Source of the DNA: Clostridia bacterium | Lineage (GTDB): Bacteria > Bacillota > Clostridia > Oscillospirales > CAG-272 | DNA length: 64,000 bases | Assembly: GCA_017621475.1 (NCBI GenBank) | Contig: JAGATA010000029.1 | Location: 1-64,000 of the forward strand | Reading direction: 5' to 3' | In this document: positions 8,288-21,168 of the stretch, piece after piece | How positions within the stretch are numbered: position 1 is the first letter of the stretch | Layout: each line of letters opens with the position of its first letter | Made by a program: the position numbers and the translations under genes | Notes under the pieces: generated by a model | Told to the model about the DNA's origin: nothing | The model's database searches: none | Seen by the model: only the letters and a program-made list of their open reading frames with translations

Positions 8288-8316
8288 TTGATTTTTTAAC
8301 ATCCAAATGTTAAAAT
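8288..8316 (+). promoter_or_regulatory. Promoter for the leader RNA of the surface-protein locus
   Basis: TTGATT (8288-8293), 17-bp spacer, TAAAAT (8311-8316). Transcription would start near 8323 and run through a structured region to the terminator at 8453-8481. Confidence 0.6.
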
Positions 8317-8322
8317 AAATTA

Positions 8323-8481
8323 TCAAATTACGTCGTCCGAAAAACGGCGCGTTTTTTGCCGGGAGACCCTCAAAAAACAGCTTAAAAAATAAACCTTTTT
8401 AGGTTTCATACAGGCGTTTTGTCCGTATCTGTTCGGGCAGAGTCTTTCCGAGTCCTATAGTTTGTTTGCTATAGGATTTTT
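8323..8481 (+). ncRNA. Putative structured leader RNA or small RNA, about 160 nt
   Basis: Between a good promoter and a good terminator lies an RNA-like segment without an open frame. It can form several hairpins: CCG-AAAAA-CGG near 8337, AAACCT-TTTT-AGGTTT near 8392-8407, GTCCG...CGGGC near 8421-8437, and the terminator. Blocks such as GGGAGACCC and CTTTCCGAGTCC look conserved in style. I do not recognise the family. It could be a free small RNA or a terminator-controlled riboswitch for the gene at 8538. Confidence 0.45.
8453..8481 (+). terminator. Intrinsic terminator in the 5' leader
   Basis: Perfect stem TCCTATAG / CTATAGGA with an 8-nt loop, then TTTTT. It lies 57 bp before the ATG at 8538, so it either ends a small RNA or attenuates the surface locus. 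Confidence 0.75.
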
Positions 8482-8537
8482 GTATGATTTTTATAATACC
8501 CTAAATTTTGCATAAAAACTCATAAAGGGGGAATTAA

Positions 8538-10043
8538 ATGAAAATTTCTTCATACGCAAACCGTGTCGGCGGTTTTGCGTCGATAAATACCGGTGTCATT
8601 AACGATTGCTATACGGACGCTGTTGTGAATTTCAAAGTAAATGCTGCCGGCTTCGTCTTTGAAAATACGGGGATGATAAGCAACTCCGTAGCGCAAAAAA
8701 AGACCGTTGGCAAAGAAAACATCGGCGGTTTTTGCTTCAGAAACAAAGGCATTGTTCTTGAAAGCGGTTGGCTTCGCAAGGATGCCAAGGAAAAGAAATA
8801 CCACAAAAAATATTCCGACCTTGATTTTGCCGTAGATTACGAAAAGTTTGAAGAGCTTAAAGAAAAGCTTGGTCTTGGCGTAAGGTGGAAAACTCCTGCC
8901 GAAGGTGATAGACGCCTTGAGTTTTCCGAGGAGCTGCACGGCAATGCCCTTGCAACTGAGGGAAAGGACATTGTGGAAATATCATCCGCAGATGAGCTTT
9001 TCAAAATAGCGCAGGAGATAGCAAGCGGAGATGCTTATGCCGCTTCTTGTGCGTATAAGCTTACGAAGGATATAAACCTGAAGGGCAAAAAATGGTTGCC
9101 AATAGGTCTTTCCGAAACAATGGCGTTTTCAGGCGTATTCGACGGAAACGGTTTTAAGGTATATAACTTCAAGATAGATGCCAAAAACCTTAATTATGCA
9201 GGCTTCTTCGGTTACGTTAAGGATGCGAAGATCATGAACCTCACGCTAGACTGCGTGGTAAAAGCCGCAGGCGGCAATACCACGGGCAGTATGTGCGGCA
9301 CTAATAACGGCGGCAAGTTTTCGTGCTGCCGCGTGCTTGCAAGAGTCAATGCGGAAAAATGCTGCGGCGGCTTTGTCGGCAACAATATGGGTACTATCGA
9401 AAAATGCTGCTTTATCGGCAAGATAACTCCCGTAGTTCCGCTTCTTCTTTGGCTTTTGCCTTTGCTCGGCGGTATATTTTTATTGCTGATAATAGGTGTG
9501 ATAATCCTTATCATAAACCTAAACAAATCTCCATATAATCCTACTATAATCGACCCGAACGGCAAGCCTATAGTGGACAATACCCCTGTTACACCTCCGC
9601 CTGCGGGCTCCAGCCGTATCAGCTTTGAGTGTAACCAAGAGGTTTATGTGGATGCAAACTCTCAGATAGGTATCATCCAGTACGTAAACCCCAAGCGAAG
9701 CACACAGGATGTTATCATAAGCATAAAGATATCCGATGCAGAGCTTGTTCGCACGCTCGGAAAAACGTGCAGAACCGCAGAAGAACAGGCGGCACTCGAA
9801 GCTTCCGGAAATTATAACCCCGAAACGACCTTCCAAGTGCTTTACCGTTCCGGCAGACTTAAAATAGGCTATATGCTTGAGCTTTGCCAATTCGATGCTC
9901 TTCCCGACGGAACAAAGCTTCCTGTAGGGGATTACGAAATGCTTGTTGGTATCGAGGCTTATGACCCAGAAACTAACGAAAAGGCTGTGGTAAACGCACA
10001 GGCACCTATATCCGTTCACATAATTGAATCCAAAGCGAACTGA
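8538..10043 (+). CDS. Membrane-anchored protein with GLUG-like repeats and an extracellular Ig-like domain
   Basis: A 501-residue protein of unknown function with an odd layout. It has no signal peptide. Residues 1-295 contain short GLUG-like beta-helix turns (GGF...NTGVINDCY, GTIEKCCFIGK). A strong hydrophobic stretch follows at about 298-326, then a proline-rich linker and a C-terminal beta-rich domain (about 350-501). If the single helix acts as a signal anchor, the repeats would be cytoplasmic and the C-terminal domain outside. The C-terminal domain resembles the ectodomain of the protein at 18368 (N/S-P-x-S/T...PG or K-I-G-x...L...G-x-Y). The ribosome site is AAAGGGGG. It is the first gene of the surface locus, 35 bp before the giant protein. 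Confidence 0.7.
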   Translation: MKISSYANRVGGFASINTGVINDCYTDAVVNFKVNAAGFVFENTGMISNSVAQKKTVGKENIGGFCFRNKGIVLESGWLRKDAKEKKYHKKYSDLDFAVDYEKFEELKEKLGLGVRWKTPAEGDRRLEFSEELHGNALATEGKDIVEISSADELFKIAQEIASGDAYAASCAYKLTKDINLKGKKWLPIGLSETMAFSGVFDGNGFKVYNFKIDAKNLNYAGFFGYVKDAKIMNLTLDCVVKAAGGNTTGSMCGTNNGGKFSCCRVLARVNAEKCCGGFVGNNMGTIEKCCFIGKITPVVPLLLWLLPLLGGIFLLLIIGVIILIINLNKSPYNPTIIDPNGKPIVDNTPVTPPPAGSSRISFECNQEVYVDANSQIGIIQYVNPKRSTQDVIISIKISDAELVRTLGKTCRTAEEQAALEASGNYNPETTFQVLYRSGRLKIGYMLELCQFDALPDGTKLPVGDYEMLVGIEAYDPETNEKAVVNAQAPISVHIIESKAN

Positions 10044-10078
10044 TCTTTAAAAAATAACGCGAAAGGAGGAAATGCATA

Positions 10079-13000
10079 GTGAACAAAAAAAGAGCTCTTG
10101 CTCTTTGTATAATTTTTGCGATAGCCTTATTGCTTATTCCTCCTTTTGGAATAAACATAAGCGCGGCATATACCATATCAGGCGGTATTGTTATTATAGA
10201 TGAAGATTTGGTTGCTGCCGAAGGCAACGAATTCATTATTGAAGGCGACGTATTCTCGGTAACGGTCATTGGAGATGTGGATGTTTCCATCATTTTCAAC
10301 AATGTCACAATAGACCGAAGCGCAGATTCTGCGGGAACAAATGTTGCGGGTATATACACCGCAGGTCAAAGACTTAATTGGACCCGTGGCTATAACTCAT
10401 TTTACGTGCCCACCTGCCCTTTGCTTATAACGGGCGGCGCAAACGTGACGGCACGCTTTGACGGTACTTGCACATTTAAAGCGGGTACAAGCGGATGGTA
10501 CGCAGCAAGCGACAATACCCTGTTGCTTGACTCGACAAACAGAGGCGGTTACGCCGGCATACAAGTCGATGGTGACTCATCTCTCACCATAAGCGGCGCG
10601 GAAAACCTTATTGCATACGGTGCGTACCAGACCCAAAATAGTTCCACCTCCGCAGGAAGCGGAAAGCCGTCCGGGTTGACCGGAACAAACAACCGCGGCG
10701 GCGGTGCAGGCATCGGCGGCGGTACGTCGTACACCAGCCCCTCTGCTGCTACATCGTCTTACACGCAAGGCACGCCAGGGACCATTATCATCGATAACGG
10801 AAACGTGACTGCTTACGGCGGTTTCCAAGCAGCAGGCATCGGCGGCGGTACGAACAGCGCCGCAACAACCAACAAGATCGAGATCAACGGCGGTGTCGTT
10901 ACCGCGCACGGCGGCGCTTGGGCGGCAGGCATCGGTGAAGGCGACTCAGTTGACGGAGCCGCATCCAATCTGTTCAATTCGGAAGAGAACACCTATGAGG
11001 TCGTTATCAACGGCGGTGTCGTTACCGCGTACGGCGGATACAGCGCCGCGGCTATCGGTACTACCGACGCCATTACCAACGGCAACTCCTTCTCCGTTGG
11101 AACGACTTCGGGACTTTCGATAACAATCACGGGCGGCAATATAACGGCTACATCAGGCGAAACATCGACTGACAGTCTTACTGCCGCAATAGGTGCAGGT
11201 CAAAACACCGATATGGAGGATAACAGTATCACTATCTACAATGAAGCAAAGATAGTTGCTGCGTCATTCTCCCGATACGCTATATCAAACTACGGTTACT
11301 CAACCGACACCCCCTCCGTTAATATCGACCCGGAAGGCTACGTTTACCTCGCACGCTTCGGAAGCGTAACAAAGGAGCGTACCTTCAAAGTTTACGCTAT
11401 ACACAAAAACGCGAACGGACACTTTATGTACGTTCCCACGGCATCCCACGATATTTCGGACGGAAGTATCGACAGCGCGACTATGCCGTATTATTACGCG
11501 TATGACCCCGGTCACGTTTCCTCGGACGGTACGCGAATCGGCGGTTTCTACCTTGTTGATAAGGACGGAGCAAATGTTGTTCCTTCCGATTATGCGGATA
11601 ACCCGGAAGATTACCTTTACGATAAAGATACGAAACGTTATTATCCCACAACGATACCCGCTGTTTCGGCGTATTACGACACGGAAACGATAATAGAAGA
11701 GATAACCGTTCCCGGCAATTACAAAGCCGTGGCGATAACTCTTCCCAACCCTAACGAATACGGCGGTTCATATGTACTTGAAGTTCCGCAAGCAAGCGGC
11801 AACCCCATTTATGTCCTTATGCAAAAGGACCATCCCGGCGTTACCTCAGGCGAGGTAGAAAACGCCTCTCAAACTCATTACTCTGCGGGCAGTAACCCTC
11901 CATCGGAGGCGAACAGCACCCCCAACATAACGATAGACGGCACGGCAAGACCTTTTACGGACCTTGACGTCGGTATTTACGAGGGCGGCGCGGCACAGCC
12001 CACGCTCATCCCCGAATTTACGGATACCGTGTATGGCTACACATTCTATGTTCCGCACGGAACGGAACGCTTCTGGCTTGATTTTTCTTTCGCTTCATCA
12101 TATACGGACGAATACGGCAACGCTGTTTCTGCGAAAATAATCCTTCTCACGCTGGACGGTGTGAACCAAGGGTTTGACTCCGGCTCAACTTCAATATTGC
12201 TCTCCGATCTTAATATCGGAAGCGACGGAAAGGCAAACGTGTGGATAAAGAAAACGGACACCACCATAGTAAGCGGAAGCACAAAGACCGTTTCTTATAA
12301 AGTGACTATAGTTGTAAAGGATAAATATGCTTTCCTTCTCAACGTGGATGCACTTGATAAAATTTACGACGGTAACCCCGTTGAACCCTCGTTCACAGCA
12401 TTGTTGGAGGGTGCGGGATATTCTACCACCGTTGAAAAGGGAGCTCTTACAACAACTTATTCTCCAAAAGATACCGATTCGGATGGGGCACGGGGCAGCC
12501 TTTCCTTAAGTTACTGGTATACTGTTTATTATACAATAAGCAATGTATCTATTGACGAAAATGGAACTGTTACATATACGGCAACGTTTACTTACAATAC
12601 TTACAATAATTCTTATACGCAGGATTATACGTTTACCGTTGATAAAGACGGTAATATATCGAGTTCAGCCGGAACAAGATATATCGATTGTCCAAAAAAC
12701 GGCAATTACTATTATCGAATAGCTATCACCTACAATAACGGCAATATGACATTGCAGCTGCAAAGCAGTAAAAATCAGAGTTCTTGGTCTACGACAAATA
12801 CCTCTAATCTTCCGCTGAGTGTTTCTGTAACGCATAACTTTGTAACTTCTACCGATCTTTCTGCTGTTGAAAGCTCTCTTAAAGATAAGATTGCGGCAAA
12901 CGGCACAACTTCCGAAAGCACGACTTTTTACGGATATAAAGAACTCGGTACGGCGGTTTACAGCGTAACGCTCGGCTCAATTTCCGATACATACAATGTA

Positions 13001-14299
13001 ACATATACCTCCACGGGAAACGCGATGGTTACCGTTTCTTACAGCCAAGGAACGAACCTTACCTCCAAAATGACACAGGAGGAAAAGGATGCTATTACAT
13101 ATACCTTCTATGAGGACTCCGACGGCGACGGCACGTATGAAACTCTGCTCGGCTTGGATGCGCCGAAAAACGCGGGAAGATACGTTGTCCACGCATTCCT
13201 CGAATCTCAAAAATACGAGGCAGAGGGTCAGGCACTGTTCGTTATCTACAAAAAAGAGATACACATCGTTGCTATTGCCAACTGGCTCAAATACGTTACG
13301 ACGAGCGAGCTCGTAAGCTACGACGGCGTTATCGCCGAGCCGGGAGATATATACTTTGAAGGTGTTATAAGCGGCGAAACAGTTGCTCTTCAGGCAGGCG
13401 CTTCGTTTGGCTATGTTGATACGGGAAATCTGGGATACGCAGACGACGTAAACTACAACGACCAAAAGATAAAGATAACAAACACCGTTCTGAACTCTGC
13501 TTCGCAGGTCAACTATACGCTTACGGGTGTTGTTGACGGCGTTTGTTACGTTCCCGGTCAGATAGCTTATTCCTCAAGCGGAACGTTGTTCCGTAAGGAA
13601 GGCTCTAACACATCTCTTTGGAGAAAGTTCTATCCCGTTGAAGAAACGGATTATCTCACCTGGATAACAAGCGACGGCGCATTTACGGATAGCCGAGTGG
13701 ACTACCACTCCCCCGTGCCGAACGGTGCAAATGCCGAAAACGACTACAGCGGAGGTACGGTAGGTATCCACCGCGAATACGTGAAGCTGCGTACCACGGG
13801 CGACACGAGCGCGCGTTACTCCGTTGATATTGAGTTCGGCGCTATGCAGTACCAGTACACGAAAAGGGTCTGGAACGTAAACACCGGCGAATATGAAGGT
13901 GTTGAAGGCGAGTCCAAATGGAACGGACACAACGGCACCAATAATGCCGTAACGGTTACGAACCGTTCCAACTCCCAAATATATTATAAAGTTGAATTTG
14001 AAATAGACTTTATGTATGCGGCTATCACCGAAGGTGCGGACTCCGGCATACGTGCGGCATTGTTCGATACAAATGGCGCGCTTGTCGCGGGAACGCAAGT
14101 CGGCGAAAAAATAACGAGCACAAGCGGCAAAAGCGATGTTCAAGTTCTTCTTTCCGCGGCTCCGCCTGACCCGACAGGAGTGGGCACGGCACATTCCAAG
14201 ACGTATTTGCTTGTGCTTTCGGGCGTCCCCTCCTCTATAACGGAGGATAACAACATAAATTACACTAATGTTGGCTCTATCACGGTGACGATAATATAA
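10079..14299 (+). CDS. Giant secreted beta-helix surface protein
   Basis: A 1406-residue exported protein. The start is GTG, set by AAAGGAGG 9 bases upstream; a nearby ATG at 10072 is out of frame. Layout: signal peptide (about 1-30); right-handed beta-helix with repeats like TAYGG..AAGIGGG (about 35-400), as in carbohydrate-binding beta-helix proteins; mixed beta-rich region with a cadherin-like segment (about 640-745); an MBG-type repeat starting KIYDGNPVEPS (about 755) that resumes as APKNAGRYVVHAF (about 1025), split by a Tyr/Asn/Ser/Thr-rich stretch; and a C-terminal domain (about 1237-1406) with YSVDIEF and VTVTNRSN, shared with the five smaller downstream proteins. No LPxTG or transmembrane anchor is visible. 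Inferred role: core of a cell-surface structure. Confidence 0.75.
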   Translation: MNKKRALALCIIFAIALLLIPPFGINISAAYTISGGIVIIDEDLVAAEGNEFIIEGDVFSVTVIGDVDVSIIFNNVTIDRSADSAGTNVAGIYTAGQRLNWTRGYNSFYVPTCPLLITGGANVTARFDGTCTFKAGTSGWYAASDNTLLLDSTNRGGYAGIQVDGDSSLTISGAENLIAYGAYQTQNSSTSAGSGKPSGLTGTNNRGGGAGIGGGTSYTSPSAATSSYTQGTPGTIIIDNGNVTAYGGFQAAGIGGGTNSAATTNKIEINGGVVTAHGGAWAAGIGEGDSVDGAASNLFNSEENTYEVVINGGVVTAYGGYSAAAIGTTDAITNGNSFSVGTTSGLSITITGGNITATSGETSTDSLTAAIGAGQNTDMEDNSITIYNEAKIVAASFSRYAISNYGYSTDTPSVNIDPEGYVYLARFGSVTKERTFKVYAIHKNANGHFMYVPTASHDISDGSIDSATMPYYYAYDPGHVSSDGTRIGGFYLVDKDGANVVPSDYADNPEDYLYDKDTKRYYPTTIPAVSAYYDTETIIEEITVPGNYKAVAITLPNPNEYGGSYVLEVPQASGNPIYVLMQKDHPGVTSGEVENASQTHYSAGSNPPSEANSTPNITIDGTARPFTDLDVGIYEGGAAQPTLIPEFTDTVYGYTFYVPHGTERFWLDFSFASSYTDEYGNAVSAKIILLTLDGVNQGFDSGSTSILLSDLNIGSDGKANVWIKKTDTTIVSGSTKTVSYKVTIVVKDKYAFLLNVDALDKIYDGNPVEPSFTALLEGAGYSTTVEKGALTTTYSPKDTDSDGARGSLSLSYWYTVYYTISNVSIDENGTVTYTATFTYNTYNNSYTQDYTFTVDKDGNISSSAGTRYIDCPKNGNYYYRIAITYNNGNMTLQLQSSKNQSSWSTTNTSNLPLSVSVTHNFVTSTDLSAVESSLKDKIAANGTTSESTTFYGYKELGTAVYSVTLGSISDTYNVTYTSTGNAMVTVSYSQGTNLTSKMTQEEKDAITYTFYEDSDGDGTYETLLGLDAPKNAGRYVVHAFLESQKYEAEGQALFVIYKKEIHIVAIANWLKYVTTSELVSYDGVIAEPGDIYFEGVISGETVALQAGASFGYVDTGNLGYADDVNYNDQKIKITNTVLNSASQVNYTLTGVVDGVCYVPGQIAYSSSGTLFRKEGSNTSLWRKFYPVEETDYLTWITSDGAFTDSRVDYHSPVPNGANAENDYSGGTVGIHREYVKLRTTGDTSARYSVDIEFGAMQYQYTKRVWNVNTGEYEGVEGESKWNGHNGTNNAVTVTNRSNSQIYYKVEFEIDFMYAAITEGADSGIRAALFDTNGALVAGTQVGEKITSTSGKSDVQVLLSAAPPDPTGVGTAHSKTYLLVLSGVPSSITEDNNINYTNVGSITVTII

Positions 14300-14319
14300 C
14301 CGTAACCTCTTCCGACTTT

Positions 14320-14560
14320 AAAGCCTCCCTTGTGCAAAGGGAGGTGGCACGGCTATCCGTGACGGAGGGATTGTAAATTTGCTTTTATCCCTAAATGACA
14401 ATCCCTCACCGCCTATGGCGGAGCTCCCTTTACACAAGGGAGCCTACAGACCTCTTCCGTCAGCCTATGGCTGACACCTTCCCCAATTCGCTTACGCGGG
14501 AAAGGCTTAAATACTATCGGCTCTTTTGCCTTCCCCTTTGGGGAAGGGGGACCGCGGACG
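14320..14560. repeat. Family A palindromic repeats, several copies
   Basis: This intergenic stretch holds CTCCCTTGTGCAAAGGGAG, the inverted copy CTCCCTTTACACAAGGGAG, CCGTCAGCCTATGGCTGAC and TTCCCCTTTGGGGAA modules. They match the repeats at 105-235 and 21240-21375. The gap between the 10079 and 14645 genes contains nothing else recognisable. Confidence 0.75.
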
Positions 14561-14644
14561 GGGTCCTCAAATTGTGCGCAAGTACAGTTTGGGGTTCTCG
14601 GGGCGGTGGATGAGGTAAACTAAAAAAGAAAGGCAGATGATGGA

Positions 14645-15196
14645 ATGAAGCGAATATTTTCCTTGATATTGGCGTTTTGCTTTGTAATATTCGGCGGCAT
14701 TTCCGTTTCTGCCGCGAGCGTTGCAAACAATGCGACGGCTTACCCGGGTGGTGCTTCAAGCACCTCGGGCATCGGTGTTGCGGTAATATCCACTGTAAGC
14801 AGATACGCAATAGACGTAACTTTCAGCCAGACGGAGTTTACGCTCAACTCTCTTGTTTGGGATGTAAACAATCTTGAATACATCTTGGTGCAAAACCAGA
14901 GCTTTGAAGCAACACCCATAAACGTGACGGTGACAAACTATTCCGACAAGCCGATTTTGGCTTGGGGAAGTGCCACCCCCAACACGGCTGTGGAGATACA
15001 CTCCATAGAACCCACTTACACGGTGGATAACAAGCTTACCATCCCAGGCGTTGTTCCCGATGGCATTGCGAACAACACGAACGGTGTGAACGGCAAGATG
15101 GCTTATTACATCAACGTTCCTGCGGGATGGTCGCCCCCGAGCCTTTCTGGCAGTGTTGTTATCGGTGCGATATCCGTGTATTTGGCAAAACCCTAA
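14645..15196 (+). CDS. Small secreted protein of the shared-domain family (paralogue 1)
   Basis: A 183-residue exported protein with a signal peptide (about 1-24, ending near VSA). The mature part is one beta-rich domain bearing the locus signature: SRYAIDVTF (about 57-65), W-D-V...L-E-Y, VTVTNYSDKPI, and a closing IGAISVYL strand. No anchor, cysteine pair or catalytic motif is seen. It is the second protein in the locus with this domain, after the C-terminus of the 1406-residue protein. Repeats lie on both sides, so it may have its own promoter. Function unknown; a structural subunit is an inference. Confidence 0.7.
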   Translation: MKRIFSLILAFCFVIFGGISVSAASVANNATAYPGGASSTSGIGVAVISTVSRYAIDVTFSQTEFTLNSLVWDVNNLEYILVQNQSFEATPINVTVTNYSDKPILAWGSATPNTAVEIHSIEPTYTVDNKLTIPGVVPDGIANNTNGVNGKMAYYINVPAGWSPPSLSGSVVIGAISVYLAKP

Positions 15197-15224
15197 AGGC
15201 TCTCTCTTGGGAGCGAAGATTGGC

Positions 15225-15355
15225 GATACCTCACCCGTCACGAAAAATCGTGACACCCTCCCCATAAGGGAGGGGCCCGCGGCGCAATATCTTTTTGCGG
15301 TGCAAACCGCCCTTCCACGAAGACCGGGGAAGGTGGCAACCGTAGGTTGACGGAT
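15225..15355. repeat. Family A palindromic repeats
   Basis: GTCACGAAAAATCGTGAC, CCTCCCCATAAGGGAGG and a CCTTCC...GGAAGG pair, ending in TGACGGATGAGG. The same closing module occurs near 21360. The rest of the 15197-15461 gap holds only the ribosome site of the next gene. Confidence 0.7.
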
Positions 15356-15461
15356 GAGGCTGATTGCATACAAAAACTCGATTATACGAAACGGCAAAAC
15401 CGTTTTCTTATAATACAACAAAAACAAAAAAACAAATAAAAATTTTAAATGGAGGAAAAAA

Positions 15462-16046
15462 ATGAAAAAACTTATTTCTATTATTCTTTCTCTCGCACTC
15501 GTTGCTTGCATGTTCGCAATGAACGTTGGCGCGGCTCTTGTTGTTGGTGATAACGATAGCAATACGGCTCTTAGTGCCGGTGATGGTGCTACAGATATTC
15601 CTGCAAATTCTAGTCTTTCTTCTGATGTCACACTTACGGTTGGAACTGTAAATCATAGATATGCAGTTGACGTTACATTCCAAACCATGGCAATCAATGC
15701 TGGCGATGTTACATGGAATGTAACTACAGCAAAGTATGAATTGGCAAATGATGTTACAGCAACATCTTGGGATATTACTGTTGTTAACTATTCGGATATG
15801 GCTGTTACAGCTACAGCTGCTATAACAGAAACAAATTTAAAGTAAGGAATGACCGTTGCATTTGACGGTGCTAATTCCTTGCCTTTAAATGCAGTAACAG
15901 TTGGCGATACAGATGGTGAAAGTGGTACTATGAAAGTTAAGGCTTCTAGCTCTGATTGGAATGCAACTATTAATGCATATATAAAAGATGGCCAGCTCAC
16001 CGATGTAAAAATTGCGAAAATTACGGTAACAATCAGCAAGCCTTAA
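15462..16046 (+). pseudogene. Shared-domain secreted protein interrupted by one in-frame TAA (paralogue 2)
   Basis: Codons 1-127 (15462-15842) encode a signal peptide (about 1-25) and the first half of the shared domain (NHRYAVDVTF, T-W-N-V, VVNYSDMAV). A TAA at 15843-15845 follows. The same frame then continues without shift through GMTVAFDG to a natural closing strand KITVTISKP and stop at 16046. Read through, the product would be about 194 residues, close to the 191-residue paralogue at 16102. AGGA ribosome-site and leader sequences are intact. It could be a recent nonsense mutation, a sequencing error, or a stop that is read through. The downstream ATG at 15849 has no signal peptide. Confidence 0.75.
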
Positions 16047-16101
16047 TCAATAATTCCGCATTATAATTTTCAAAAACAAAATTTTATCAGGAGGTAATAC
16101 T

Positions 16102-16677
16102 ATGAAAAAAATCATTTCTATTCTCGTTGCTGTGATGATGATCGTTTCTCTCTTTGCTGTACCTGCATTTGCTTATGATATCGATGCTAGCTCCGGCAAC
16201 GATACTTATGAAGGTGCTATAAAAGACGCTTTCGGCGGCAGCACATCCGCGGACGTTCAGATCCAGATCAATGGTGACGTTAACCACAGATATGCTGTTG
16301 ATATCACGTTCGATGCGCAGATATTCACGCTTAGCACGGGTGCTACTTGGCATCCCGAAAGACACGAATACATCCACGACCTTCCTGTTACTTGGAACGG
16401 TGAAGGTACTGTTACTGTAGCAAACCACTCCGATATGCCCATTACATATGAAGCAACGGCAGCGGTTACTACGGACGAATACGGTCCCCTCTCCATCGTA
16501 TTCAACGGTGCAGCTACATACGCTCCCATTCCTGAAACCAGAATTGAAGGATGCACGGTTGGCGGCGTTGCTCCTAAAGGTGATTTTACATACGGTGTAG
16601 TTGGTACACCTATCGTTGCACAGCTCGCTGCTACAAAGCTCGGTACTGTAACAGTAACGGTTGATGCTGTTGACTAA
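16102..16677 (+). CDS. Small secreted protein of the shared-domain family (paralogue 3)
   Basis: A 191-residue exported protein with a strong ribosome site (AGGAGGTAAT) and signal peptide (about 1-23, PAFA then YDI). The mature region is the shared beta domain: ADVQIQI, NHRYAVDITF (about 60), A-T-W...H-E-Y, VTVANHSDMPI and closing LGTVTVTVDAVD. It is the closest relative of the interrupted gene just upstream. No anchor or sortase signal. Probably an extracellular structural or adhesive subunit, by inference from the locus. Confidence 0.72.
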   Translation: MKKIISILVAVMMIVSLFAVPAFAYDIDASSGNDTYEGAIKDAFGGSTSADVQIQINGDVNHRYAVDITFDAQIFTLSTGATWHPERHEYIHDLPVTWNGEGTVTVANHSDMPITYEATAAVTTDEYGPLSIVFNGAATYAPIPETRIEGCTVGGVAPKGDFTYGVVGTPIVAQLAATKLGTVTVTVDAVD

Positions 16678-16691
16678 TGAATTTTACAAAT

Positions 16692-16721
16692 TATGTCGTG
16701 CGGGGAACCCCGCATGACATA
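16692..16721 (+). terminator. GC-rich hairpin between paralogues
   Basis: A 14-bp stem with one G-U pair (TATGTCGTGCGGGG / CCCCGCATGACATA) and a 2-nt loop, not followed by a clear T-run. A second small hairpin, TGTTGA...TCAACA, follows. It may protect or partly terminate the upstream message. Confidence 0.5.
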
Positions 16722-16806
16722 GATTGTTGAGATAATTTTCAACAACCTCTGCCATGCGGGGTATTCGCAGACAACCTACTAAAATACGCAGAAAGGAGAA
16801 GACTTT

Positions 16807-17412
16807 ATGAGGACGATTTTCGCAAAACGTTTTTTTTGCAAGATACTTGCTGTTTTTTTGTCGGTTTGCGTGATGATATTTTCAGCGAATCTTCTCATTT
16901 TTGCGGGGTGGGAACACGGTGCGTCGAACGACGTGCTTATTCAGATCCTCGGCGATTGCAAGGGCGGTTACCGCTATTCTGTTGATATTATTTATTACAG
17001 CATGACTTTTTCTTTTGACGTGCGTTCTTATGAAACAAACGTTGCCACGGGCGAAACTTACATCGCAAGCGGCGTTTGGCATATGGATGAAAACGAACTC
17101 TCTGATGTAGAGCTTTACGTGGAAAACCACGCGGACACTCCTATCCGCGTTACAGCTTTTGTAGATCAGGCGGATTTTGACAAGTGTAAGACGAACGTTT
17201 TGCGCGAAGGCTTGCAGAGCGAGTATCTGCCTGCGTGCGAACTTACAAGCGGCGGCGTTGTTGTCAGCCGCGGCACAATGACACTTGAGCTTGAAAATGT
17301 CCCCCATGTGGGTTTTTTCAAGGGTGAAAAACAATTTTACGTTACCGTTTACGTTGTTCCCACAAGCGGAGAAACAACTTCGGGCCGCTATTTTAATTCT
17401 AAATTCAAATGA
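16807..17412 (+). CDS. Secreted protein of the shared-domain family (paralogue 4)
   Basis: A 201-residue exported protein with ribosome site GAAAGGAG and a long signal peptide (about 1-36). The mature part again shows the shared pattern: NDVLIQI, YRYSVDIIYY, then VELYVENHADTPIRV and a closing strand QFYVTVYVV. It is more divergent than the two paralogues upstream and contains two cysteines (near 126 and 143) that could pair outside the cell. No anchor is visible. A perfect hairpin follows at 17416. Role unknown beyond membership of this surface locus. Confidence 0.68.
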   Translation: MRTIFAKRFFCKILAVFLSVCVMIFSANLLIFAGWEHGASNDVLIQILGDCKGGYRYSVDIIYYSMTFSFDVRSYETNVATGETYIASGVWHMDENELSDVELYVENHADTPIRVTAFVDQADFDKCKTNVLREGLQSEYLPACELTSGGVVVSRGTMTLELENVPHVGFFKGEKQFYVTVYVVPTSGETTSGRYFNSKFK

Positions 17413-17415
17413 TGA

Positions 17416-17449
17416 AAATTCTTGCGCAAATGCATCCGCGCAAGAATTT
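17416..17449 (+). terminator. Perfect 12-bp hairpin after paralogue 4
   Basis: AAATTCTTGCGC and GCGCAAGAATTT flank a 10-nt loop. The T-run is short, so it may be a weak terminator or a message-stabilising hairpin between 16807 and 17491. Confidence 0.55.
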
Positions 17450-17490
17450 AAAGGATGAACCTAAAAACGATGGAAAGAGGTGTTGCACAA

Positions 17491-18360
17491 ATGAATAGAA
17501 TATTTAATAAGGCAAGATCTCTTTGCGCCGTTTTGCTTTCGGGCGCTCTCGCTTTTTCCGGCGCTGCGAGGGTTCACGCAGAGGAAACCACCGCAACGAC
17601 CGCGGCGGTCACCGCACAAACCACCGTAGCTGCAACAACTGCGGCACTTATCGAAACCACGTCTACTGTTGCCACTGCTGCAACCACAAGTGAAGCCGCG
17701 TTAATAACGACGGCAACAACTGTTCCTGCGACCACAACTAACGCAACCGCTACAACCACACAAAGTGTTTTGGCGACAACCACGGCGGCGGTTATCGTTC
17801 CTCCCGTCCAAACCTTGGCAGGCTCTGAAAGCTATGTTTATAACGTAACGATAACTTTTGGCTCTTTTGATTTCTACTACGACTATGGAACGTGGGATTC
17901 TCAAAACCTTAAATACTCGGCAAACCAATCCAGCACGAACCCTGCCGCAGGTACGGTTAATACCTTCCCGGGTTGGTACGGATTTGACGGCACGGCGAAT
18001 AAAATAAGCGTTGAAAATTCTTCTACCGCCGGCGGAGTGCAGGTGACCGTGCAATATGCGGATACACCGCTTGCGGGTGACACCACGGACAATATAGCGT
18101 TTCCGCTTTTGCCCGACTCCGTTACGATGTCCTGCTATGACAATGCGGCTTTTACAATGCCTGCTTCGGGTGCGTTCGAAAACGGTTGCAGTTTCCCTGT
18201 AGCAGGGCTTGATGCCGCCCTGCAACCCACGATAAAGGATATTTACGTTTCGTTCAGCGGTAAACCGTTGAATACGGACGGAACAAATTTTGTAAGCGCG
18301 CAGACAAAGAGAATCGGCTATATCACGCTGACGGTATCTCTGCCCGATGCGGTTCAATGA
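17491..18360 (+). CDS. Secreted protein with Thr/Ala-rich stalk and shared domain (paralogue 5)
   Basis: A 289-residue exported protein. ATG 17491 is chosen over 17455 because AAAGAGG lies about 11 bases upstream and the signal peptide (about 1-30, ending VHA) starts there. Residues about 31-105 are a low-complexity stalk of Thr, Ala and Val, likely extended and possibly O-glycosylated. The remainder is a larger version of the shared domain: YNVTITFGSF, GTWDSQNLKY, KISVENSS and closing RIGYITLTVSL. The stop is 7 bp before the start of the membrane protein at 18368, implying coupled translation. Confidence 0.7.
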   Translation: MNRIFNKARSLCAVLLSGALAFSGAARVHAEETTATTAAVTAQTTVAATTAALIETTSTVATAATTSEAALITTATTVPATTTNATATTTQSVLATTTAAVIVPPVQTLAGSESYVYNVTITFGSFDFYYDYGTWDSQNLKYSANQSSTNPAAGTVNTFPGWYGFDGTANKISVENSSTAGGVQVTVQYADTPLAGDTTDNIAFPLLPDSVTMSCYDNAAFTMPASGAFENGCSFPVAGLDAALQPTIKDIYVSFSGKPLNTDGTNFVSAQTKRIGYITLTVSLPDAVQ

Positions 18361-18367
18361 GGATAAA

Positions 18368-18913
18368 ATGAAAAAACAGACTTTATGTTATACTTCAATA
18401 AAAAGAATAGTGCTCTTTTCGCTCATAGCGGCGCTCGTTATCGCCGCAGCTGTGGCGGCATTCGTTATGCTCGTTTCCATAGAGCCTGCGTTTTTTGATG
18501 AAAACGCTGTTGTCGGCTCTCCCACCGAGATTTTGCCCGATGGCGCAACGTACAAACTCTTTCAAGCGGAGGGAATTTGCGATGCGGCGCTTTGTGAGCT
18601 GCCCAAGGTAACGGACGGAAAAGACGTTCACCTTTACCTTACCAGCCCCGAAACAAACAGCGTTTACATCCGTGCGGAAATATACACTGTGGCATTTGTG
18701 CGCGATGCGAGCGGCAACGTGACGGATTATTACCACGATGAGCTTTTGGGCAGAACAAACTTTATCCGCCCCGGCGAATACGTGGAAACGCTTACGCTTG
18801 ATGATAAGCTGGGGGAAGATGAAACCTACGCTATGATAAAGATAGCTACCTACAACATTGATGACGGCACAAGCAACGGAACTTTCTTTGTGAATACGAT
18901 ACTTTATAAATGA
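18368..18913 (+). CDS. Single-pass membrane protein with an extracellular Ig-like domain
   Basis: A 181-residue protein with a short basic N-terminus, one membrane helix (about 14-38) and an extracellular domain of about 140 residues. The domain pattern (VHLYLTSPETNSVYI, then GRTNFIRPGEYVETL and a late Y-A-M-I-K strand) resembles the C-terminal domain of the protein at 8538, so the locus is bounded by two anchored proteins of one type. Start 18368 follows GAGG by 5 bases; an earlier ATG at 18347 overlaps the upstream gene and lacks a ribosome site. It is the last gene of the locus, with a terminator at 18912-18939. Function unknown. Confidence 0.7.
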   Translation: MKKQTLCYTSIKRIVLFSLIAALVIAAAVAAFVMLVSIEPAFFDENAVVGSPTEILPDGATYKLFQAEGICDAALCELPKVTDGKDVHLYLTSPETNSVYIRAEIYTVAFVRDASGNVTDYYHDELLGRTNFIRPGEYVETLTLDDKLGEDETYAMIKIATYNIDDGTSNGTFFVNTILYK

Positions 18914-18939
18914 AAAAATCGGCGTGAGCCGATTTTTTC
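18912..18939. terminator. Bidirectional intrinsic terminator
   Basis: Perfect stem GAAAAAATCGGC-GTGA-GCCGATTTTTTC between the convergent surface locus and the AraC-type regulator gene. Confidence 0.85.
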
Positions 18940-19753
18940 ATTTATTATTTTGCACCGCTTCTTTGCGGTATTTTCCCGGGGAGATGCCGGTTATGCGTTT
19001 GAATTGGCGCGAAAAATGGCATACGTCGTAATAATGCAACTCTTCTGCTATCTCCTCCAGCGAAAGCGAGGAGGAGCAGAGCAGGAATTTTGCTTTGTTC
19101 ACACGCGCATTTGCAACGTAATCGGAGTAGGAAATCCCAACGTCGCGCGCAAAAAGCCTGCCAAGGTAATCCGCAGAATAAGAGAACTGCGCTGAAAAAT
19201 AGGAAAGCGAGGGCGCGCTTTCGGGAGAAGTGTTGACTCTGTCGCACATTTTTTGAACCATTTCGGTTTTGTTTTCACCTTGTTCGCCGTCGCGCATAAC
19301 GGGAAAGAGGGAGAAGTATTCCGCAAGAGCTGCACGAAAGACCGTTACGGCAAGTGCTTTTTGGGCGGCATTGTACAAGCGGACAACGCGGCGCAAAAGA
19401 CCGCAAAAATACACAAGGTCGCTTACCGCGCGGTATATCAAGGGGAAAGCACCGTCGCAATACGGCGCAAGCGCCCCCTGAGGCGCGGAAAAATGAACGT
19501 TCATTATCGTGAACGGATGGTCAATGTCATGCTCGCCGATGTAATGCGTGTTCGGCAGGAGCAAAAGGCAAGCTCCCTTGGTTACTTCGAACGTTTTTTC
19601 CCCCGCGATTATGCGCCCCTTTCCTTGCGCAACTAGCCAAAGATCGAAATCGTAAAAGCCTTTTTTGCCCGTGTCCCAATGCCAGCTCCTGCTGCATTCC
19701 GTAATGCCGCAGGAATTTATCTTTATGCTATCTAAAAAATCTAAAGTATTCAT
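18938..19753 (-). CDS. AraC-family transcriptional regulator
   Basis: A 271-residue regulator with an N-terminal cupin sensing domain (about 15-95, with H-W-D-T-G, G-x-G-x-I and LLLPNTHYIGEHD) and a C-terminal double helix-turn-helix (about 170-265, ending FKRITGISPGKYRKE). Such proteins usually respond to a sugar. The start is uncertain: ATG 19753 has no ribosome site and would sit at the predicted transcription start, so translation may be leaderless; TTG 19768 is the alternative. It is divergent from the fucose-isomerase-like gene, which is its most likely target. The promoter holds a perfect palindrome. Confidence 0.82.
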   Translation of the reverse strand: MNTLDFLDSIKINSCGITECSRSWHWDTGKKGFYDFDLWLVAQGKGRIIAGEKTFEVTKGACLLLLPNTHYIGEHDIDHPFTIMNVHFSAPQGALAPYCDGAFPLIYRAVSDLVYFCGLLRRVVRLYNAAQKALAVTVFRAALAEYFSLFPVMRDGEQGENKTEMVQKMCDRVNTSPESAPSLSYFSAQFSYSADYLGRLFARDVGISYSDYVANARVNKAKFLLCSSSLSLEEIAEELHYYDVCHFSRQFKRITGISPGKYRKEAVQNNK

Positions 19754-19759
19754 ACCGTA

Positions 19760-19788
19760 ATCGTACAATAATTGTACGGTTTTGTCAA
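19760..19788 (-). promoter_or_regulatory. AraC-gene promoter with embedded perfect palindrome
   Basis: On the minus strand TTGACA (19788-19783) is followed by a 17-bp spacer and TACGAT (19765-19760). The spacer and -10 region overlap a perfect 17-bp palindrome, CGTACAAT-A-ATTGTACG (19762-19778). A bound dimer would block this promoter, suggesting autorepression or control of both divergent genes. Confidence 0.55.
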
Positions 19789-19854: not shown

Positions 19855-21168
19855 ATGGCTACTAAAGTAAAAATAGCGGTACAGATGAAAGGAAAGGACA
19901 TTCCCGGCTGGCCCTGTATCAATTATGATTATGACAAAGAGCTTGCCCGCGTTATGGCACCTATCATCGCGCGCAACCCCGACATTGATTTTGATATTTT
20001 TAAATATACAAGCCTCGATATGGCGAAGGCGGACTACGAAGAAGACCTTAAAAAATATGACGGTGTTCTTGTCCTGCTTATGACAAACTGGCTCAAAATC
20101 GATGAATTTTACATAAATCAATCCAAGGAAGGTCTTCCCACGATAGTTGCAGACGTACCTTACTGCGGAAGCGGCTCTATGCTTGAAAAGACAAGTCCCC
20201 TCGTTCGCAGCGGAGGGTTCCCCGTGCCGATGGTTTCAAGCTTTAACTACAACGATATTGCCGAAGCGGCGGCGCTTTTCGGCGTTATCAAAAAGATGAA
20301 AGAAGCAAAGATCCTTGTTGTTAAAAACGATGTTCAGGAAAAAGCGCAGAAAGCGGCAACCGCTATCTGGGGCTGTGAATTTATAAACAAGACCTCCAAG
20401 GACCTTATGGAAATGTTTAATTCCATTCCCGATGAAAAGGCGCTCCCTCTTGCCGAAAAGTGGGAGGCGGAAGCGACGGAAGTGCGCGAGCCCACAAAAG
20501 CGGATATTTTGCAGGGCGCGAAGCTTTACTATGCTATGAAGCAGATGATGGCGGAATGCGGTGCGGATGCCGTTACTATCGACTGCCTGGAGCTTTCTTA
20601 TAACGATATTTACGGCGAAAGCTGCCATATGTACCCGTGCCTTGCATACTACCAGATGGCAAATGACGGCGAGATCGGCGTTTGCGAAGCGGACATCAAC
20701 TCTACAATTTCCTCTATGATAACTCTCTACCTTACAAAGCGCCCGGGCTATGTTTCCGACCCCGTTATCGACACAGCGAGCGATAGGATCATCTACTCTC
20801 ACTGCGTTGCCTGCCGCAAGGTTTACGGCAAGGACGACCCCAGAACGTGCCAGTATTATTTGCGCAGTCACGCGGAAGATAAGAAAGGTGCATCCGTTCA
20901 GGTCATCTTCCCTGCGGGAGAAGCGCTTACAACGGTTCAGATAAGCAATACAGAGGGCTGGGCGTCTATCCATTCCTCCAAGTCCTGCGGAAACTCTACG
21001 GGCGAAAACGGCTGCAGAAGCAAGCTTGATGCAACCTGCAACGCGGAAAACATCCTTACCAACTGGATGCCCCAGTGGCACAGAGTTACCGTTTTCGGCG
21101 ACTACCGCAAGGAAATGAAAAAACTCTTCAAAATGAAAGGCTATACCATTATCGAAGAAGATAAATAA
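19855..21168 (+). CDS. L-fucose/L-arabinose isomerase-like protein
   Basis: A 437-residue cytosolic protein resembling the fucose/arabinose isomerase fold, which interconverts aldoses and ketoses with a divalent metal. Supporting features are the N-terminal alternating alpha/beta Rossmann-like part, the central VCEADINSTISSM segment with candidate metal ligands E and D, and the C-terminal HRVTVFGDYR strand typical of the family. The true substrate cannot be read from sequence. Its strong ribosome site (AAAGGAG) and divergent AraC regulator suggest sugar induction. A terminator follows at 21173. The convergent MFS transporter at 21398 may carry a related substrate. Confidence 0.65.
   Translation: MATKVKIAVQMKGKDIPGWPCINYDYDKELARVMAPIIARNPDIDFDIFKYTSLDMAKADYEEDLKKYDGVLVLLMTNWLKIDEFYINQSKEGLPTIVADVPYCGSGSMLEKTSPLVRSGGFPVPMVSSFNYNDIAEAAALFGVIKKMKEAKILVVKNDVQEKAQKAATAIWGCEFINKTSKDLMEMFNSIPDEKALPLAEKWEAEATEVREPTKADILQGAKLYYAMKQMMAECGADAVTIDCLELSYNDIYGESCHMYPCLAYYQMANDGEIGVCEADINSTISSMITLYLTKRPGYVSDPVIDTASDRIIYSHCVACRKVYGKDDPRTCQYYLRSHAEDKKGASVQVIFPAGEALTTVQISNTEGWASIHSSKSCGNSTGENGCRSKLDATCNAENILTNWMPQWHRVTVFGDYRKEMKKLFKMKGYTIIEEDK

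Follow-up and report, generated by a model that had tools for sequence, protein, structure and literature searches.

The gene clusters closest in organisation to the locus described here are the WxL/Csc clusters, in which small exported proteins consisting mostly of one domain, large exported proteins carrying that domain at the C-terminus and a membrane Ig-like partner are encoded together (PMC1534035, PMC10599100). Such clusters sometimes also include a short, C-terminally anchored protein. A WxLIP strand is predicted to insert into the WxL sandwich and complete it, which is the nearest precedent for the strand complementation considered below (PMC10599100), and Csc clusters were reported in 2006 to be absent from Clostridia (PMC1534035). 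Three kinds of surface fibre offer further comparisons. Chaperone-usher pili (PapD/FimC) show a weak fold likeness to the proteins studied here, pilins resembling the domain shared by the exported subunits and PapD-type chaperones resembling the membrane anchor, and they likewise include a large protein with the subunit domain at its C-terminus, as in two-domain tip adhesins. However, the present lineage is monoderm, its putative chaperones are membrane-fixed and no sequence similarity was found. Fibres of TasA/TapA and camelysin have in common with the present locus exported beta-sandwich subunits and a Gram-positive lineage, and strand exchange is proposed here by analogy with them (PMC9674648, PMC10151520), whereas the giant adhesin and the two anchors have no counterpart there. 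Sortase-assembled pili differ in that no sortase gene occurs here: the remark of an earlier note on this DNA that sortase is missing holds for the whole genome (97.7% complete), in which PF04203 gave zero matches while controls were positive in three.

The locus consists of eight co-directional genes on the + strand, at 8538-18913 of the window, by which is meant the whole 64,000-nucleotide stretch analysed (Table 1). It is larger than the six-protein set of the earlier note, whose six domain proteins stand but which missed the two membrane anchors, 8538-10043 and 18347-18913, and with them a second common domain. Judged by analogy, its organisation closely parallels that of a WxL/Csc cluster, perhaps with pilus-like assembly, as exported proteins, large and small, that end in the same domain are encoded in one gene set together with a membrane Ig-like partner. 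It differs from WxL/Csc in being found in Clostridia, in having two anchors rather than one, in the N-terminal rather than C-terminal position of their transmembrane (TM) helix and in having up to five small subunits, and it lies outside every family tested. WxL (PF13731) matched 0/49 members of the shared-domain family, the shared domain scored 0.2% in hhalign comparison with WxL proteins, and no WxL domain was detected in the genome (Lactococcus served as positive control). Among window proteins there was no match to DUF916/DUF3324 or to Peptidase_M73 (TasA/camelysin) at E 1, nor any to the latter among the 49 members at E 0.01, and neither a short LPxTG protein (CscD) nor SipW was seen within the locus.

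Table 1. Features of the eight-gene locus (window coordinates)
Feature	Position	Strand	Description
Promoter-like sites	8288..8323	+	upstream of gene 1; weak, 9/12 matches, within chance expectation; pattern scan
Gene 1	8538..10043	+	501 aa; cysteine-rich GLUG-like beta-helix, TM helix 302-329 and Ig-like anchor domain about 368-496 (AlphaFold2 model)
Gene 2 (slot 2)	10079..14299	+	1406 aa; giant exported beta-helix protein, shared domain at C-terminus (about 1231-1406)
Gene 3 (slot 3)	14645..15196	+	small exported subunit with shared domain
Gene 4 (slot 4)	15462..16040	+	small exported subunit; frame interrupted in this genome by in-frame TAA, 15843-15845
Gene 5 (slot 5)	16102..16677	+	small exported subunit; AlphaFold2 beta-sandwich, residues 61-191
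Gene 6 (slot 6)	16807..17412	+	small exported subunit
Gene 7 (slot 7)	17491..18360	+	small exported subunit; Thr-rich linker; without N-terminal alternating beta segment
Gene 8	18347..18913	+	188 aa; one N-terminal TM helix; extracellular Ig-like domain, a homologue of the gene 1 anchor domain
Terminator-like hairpin	18906..18945	+	strong, 18-bp stem directly 3' of gene 8, ending the gene set; pattern scan

The signal peptide of gene 2 was read directly from the sequence, and the matches of this protein to Beta_helix_3 are weak. The gaps at 14300-14645 and 15196-15462 contain G+C-rich, repeat-like palindromes that are related to each other (34-nt inverted arms, 85% complementary). An AraC-type regulator (18938-19768) lies at the 3' end of the locus in convergent orientation, and beyond it lies a 437-aa protein (19855-21168) with zero Pfam matches at E 1.

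The earlier note's central observation, that six exported proteins have one C-terminal domain in common, was confirmed by profile search and blastp, which located all six domains where they had been placed. A profile built from other genomes only, without any sequence from this species, matched 6/6 domains among the 396 six-frame window frames (E 6e-26, for gene 2, to 3e-14) and nothing in 20 shuffled copies of those frames, while a profile built from other families only recovered five of the six, missing 17491. By blastp, each domain is linked to at least one other at E 0.002 or better, the best pair being 15462 and 16102 (E 1e-19); some single pairs are not significant, for example 16807 against 17491 (E 0.7). 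That the six constitute one family and not a simple recent duplication was likewise upheld. The whole genome (97.7% complete) contains eight copies of the domain, the six in the window and a pair on another contig (C40). This pair consists of adjacent paralogues (L035, 5680-7186) with a counterpart in the genome G021 of the same genus (L034, 681-2145), in each case with no anchors or giant nearby. No Pfam family was found for the shared domain among 49 members, nor any NCBIfam family above cut-off among 41. A single weak match to Mfa1 fimbrial subunits (1/41 members, E 0.0019; NCBIfam) was not counted as evidence, and a PDB sequence search yielded nothing beyond weak hits to designed Ig proteins and hits of the signal peptide to recombinant antibody chains. 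On these sequence comparisons, the shared domain and the anchor domain are two protein domains without a Pfam or NCBIfam family. No description of the gene set was found in the literature searched, which included few subscription papers and no bioRxiv preprints.

The anchors encoded by genes 1 and 8 are single-TM proteins with homologous outer Ig-like domains (hhalign 96.8%, E 2e-10). These domains have no detectable relation to the shared domain, no supported Pfam family and no match to DUF916/DUF3324 at E 0.1. Orthologues of gene 1 occur in three other genomes (91, 59 and 44% identity), both anchor genes are reciprocal best matches among the window, G021 and a genome of another genus (G006), and the C-terminal domain of gene 1 has homologues among the short TM proteins of other families. 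Strong matches to the outer domain of gene 8 were obtained in 11/19 domain-positive and 0/61 domain-negative genomes, with three weak ones among the negatives, although eight of the eleven matched genomes had helped to build the profile; among genomes outside the profile the counts were 3/11 and 0/61 (p about 0.003, hypergeometric). The beta-helix of gene 1 is predicted to be cytoplasmic and its Ig-like domain extracellular, since the high cysteine content of the beta-helix half (3.3-4.0% vs 0.3-0.6% in the giants) and the lack of a signal peptide fit this location. Fusion of a GLUG-like beta-helix (8538-9430) to a TM anchor was seen here, whereas the anchor of other families has just a short cytoplasmic tail; in one of the partial loci (L093) this tail has 118 residues with a CxxC motif.

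All eight genes recur in identical order and orientation in G021 and G006, and all eight are present in L069 (SVRQ01000011.1, Oscillospiraceae MAG SIG647), which is closely related to the window. The full order thus recurs in three other genomes, of at least two genera; L070 and L071, judged by length, duplicate the G021 and G006 contigs and add no further loci. The supposition that the genes co-occur as a locus is thus borne out, rather than homologues lying scattered. A reduced core extends to other families (L089, L090, L091 and L092) and to another order (L149). Its order is a large exported protein with the domain C-terminal, a TM protein whose domain is of the gene 1 type, one or two small domain proteins and a second TM anchor of the gene 8 type; the domain of the large L091 protein was matched in the first profile search and is visible in the translation, but fell below the threshold of a later script. 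L150 has the first three core components only, and partial cores were found in L093, L094, L100 and L102, three of the four near contig ends. In L095, L097, L099, L101 and L103 the domain is present with no anchors nearby. In genome samples searched at E up to 1e-3, counts from which are lower bounds, the domain was detected in 3/59 genomes of the family, 17/394 of the order, 5/391 of the class (this one included; G633 and G786 clear, two marginal) and 2/398 of the phylum (this one and a marginal one). A class search with a different alignment (A5) returned 125/391 genomes, nearly all through signal-peptide matches, and was discarded in favour of the domain-only alignment A9. Together with the two domains outside Pfam and NCBIfam, the conserved gene set makes it possible to recognise giant surface proteins in Clostridia and to sort them into groups.

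When gene slots were compared across four genomes in a maximum-likelihood tree (33 domains), the sequences grouped by slot rather than by genome. Slots 2, 6 and 7 are single clades across the four genomes (98/96, 100/100 and 100/99), and slot 5 needs two changes in the tree, with a well-supported inner group of three rows. Slots 3 and 4 form a common clade (98/97) and are intermixed inside it. The earlier note had described the small subunits as interchangeable; because clustering follows slot and not genome, with slot clades at 98-100% bootstrap across genera, most of them appear not to be, the exception being slots 3 and 4. Between the window and L069, identity is 95.6% in slot 3 and 89.5% in slot 5 vs 37% in slot 4, which suggests from sequence that the last is a hypervariable or replaced subunit. 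Despite this divergence (window 15462-16040, L069 16863-17624), its signal peptide, the preceding stretch and both neighbours are highly similar. The homologous frame of slot 4 runs past the stop codon to about 16037, with the second half still matching the domain, and the orthologues in L032, L033 and L069 are intact; the stop may be an assembly error, a polymorphism or a real loss.

An AlphaFold2 model of gene 5 has pLDDT blocks mostly of 82-94 in the sandwich and leaves residues 25-60 unfolded. Unrelated folds, which the earlier note named as a refuting outcome, did not appear in the one domain folded (16102), a beta-sandwich whose 49-sequence alignment included the other five. The best Foldseek matches of the shared domain (gene 5) are donor-strand pilins, at E 5e-3 at best, and those of the gene 1 anchor are PapD-type pilus chaperones and pilins, likewise weak. 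In VIA-align both Ig-like domains stayed below Z 8, within the usual background, and the sole clear match was that of the GLUG-like part of gene 1 (Z 11.2, 3n6z). These weak model-based scores may reflect merely a common Ig arrangement, and the pilin and chaperone matches are suggestive only. Between signal peptide and domain, 26/33 small subunits have a segment of alternating residues (e.g. DVQIQI, DVTAKY), vs 7.9 on average and at most 15 in shuffled sequence and 2/8 among giants, a contrast overstated by a pattern that was written after inspection of the sequences. A similar but looser segment, which fails the strict pattern, occurs in giants of the window type.

The reading we favour, at somewhat short of an even chance, is that the eight genes encode one sortase-independent adhesive assembly of the cell surface, held by the anchors and strand-complemented. 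The anchors, with N-in/C-out topology, would retain the subunits at the membrane or help them to fold there. In the shared domain, the Ig-like sandwich would be incomplete until a partner supplies a beta strand, which could come from an anchor or be the alternating segment that follows the signal peptide in the next small subunit. The small subunits, each with a fixed role, would make up the stalk and the giant protein its adhesive end, assembled without sortase. We infer the assembly on the cell surface and, more tentatively, the strand complementation. Joint assembly is supported by the conservation of the locus, the slot-specific orthology and the recurrence of the core in other families and another order, and strand complementation by the unfolded residues of gene 5, the alternating segment and the weak pilin and chaperone fold matches; the loci without a nearby anchor (the five listed above) and the lack of the segment in slot 7 weaken the explanation. 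The surface assembly that the earlier note proposed stays plausible, without the free exchange of subunits that it envisaged. If this model is true, strand-complemented surface structures of Gram-positive gut bacteria are more diverse than known, and sortase-free display of giant adhesins becomes directly testable.

A less probable reading, yet one that merits serious weight, is a wall complex of WxL/Csc type without a polymer, in which the shared domain would bind peptidoglycan or an anchor and the giant and small proteins would stand side by side. The likeness in architecture to WxL clusters speaks for it, and a reduced core with one or two small subunits needs no polymer; however, no wall-binding domain was recognised in the window proteins, and five distinct, mostly slot-conserved subunits in the window type suggest ordered assembly. 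That the locus is an equivalent of the chaperone-pilus system in a monoderm, with membrane-tethered Ig-like chaperones, donor-strand subunits, a giant adhesin end and no usher or sortase, is unlikely. Still less likely is a set of independent secreted adhesins or decoys that duplicated and then diverged, in which the domain would be merely a fold and no joint assembly would occur: the divergence of slot 4 between close relatives (37% vs 90-96% for its neighbours), its broken frame here and the single domain genes without a locus in L095, L099 and L101 fit such a history, but the slot clades and the constant gene order of four genomes, together with the linked anchors in other families, argue against it. 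That the locus builds a spore coat or a spore appendage is very improbable. F-ENA loci are similar in general layout, with tandem small beta proteins beside a larger one of the same domain (PMC11952670), but the Sec signal peptides and TM anchors found here point to the cell envelope and DUF4183 (Pfam) was unmatched among 49 members.

A fifth component is possible in other loci, though the window locus shows none. In L090 (9219-10241), L091 (5999-6766), L092 (1897-2703) and L149 (3485-4003), gene 8 is followed by a secreted protein with a common 'EA..WF...P.E.Y' region; in L090, L091 and L092 this protein also has a C-terminal TG-TM-basic tail, which is absent from that of L149.
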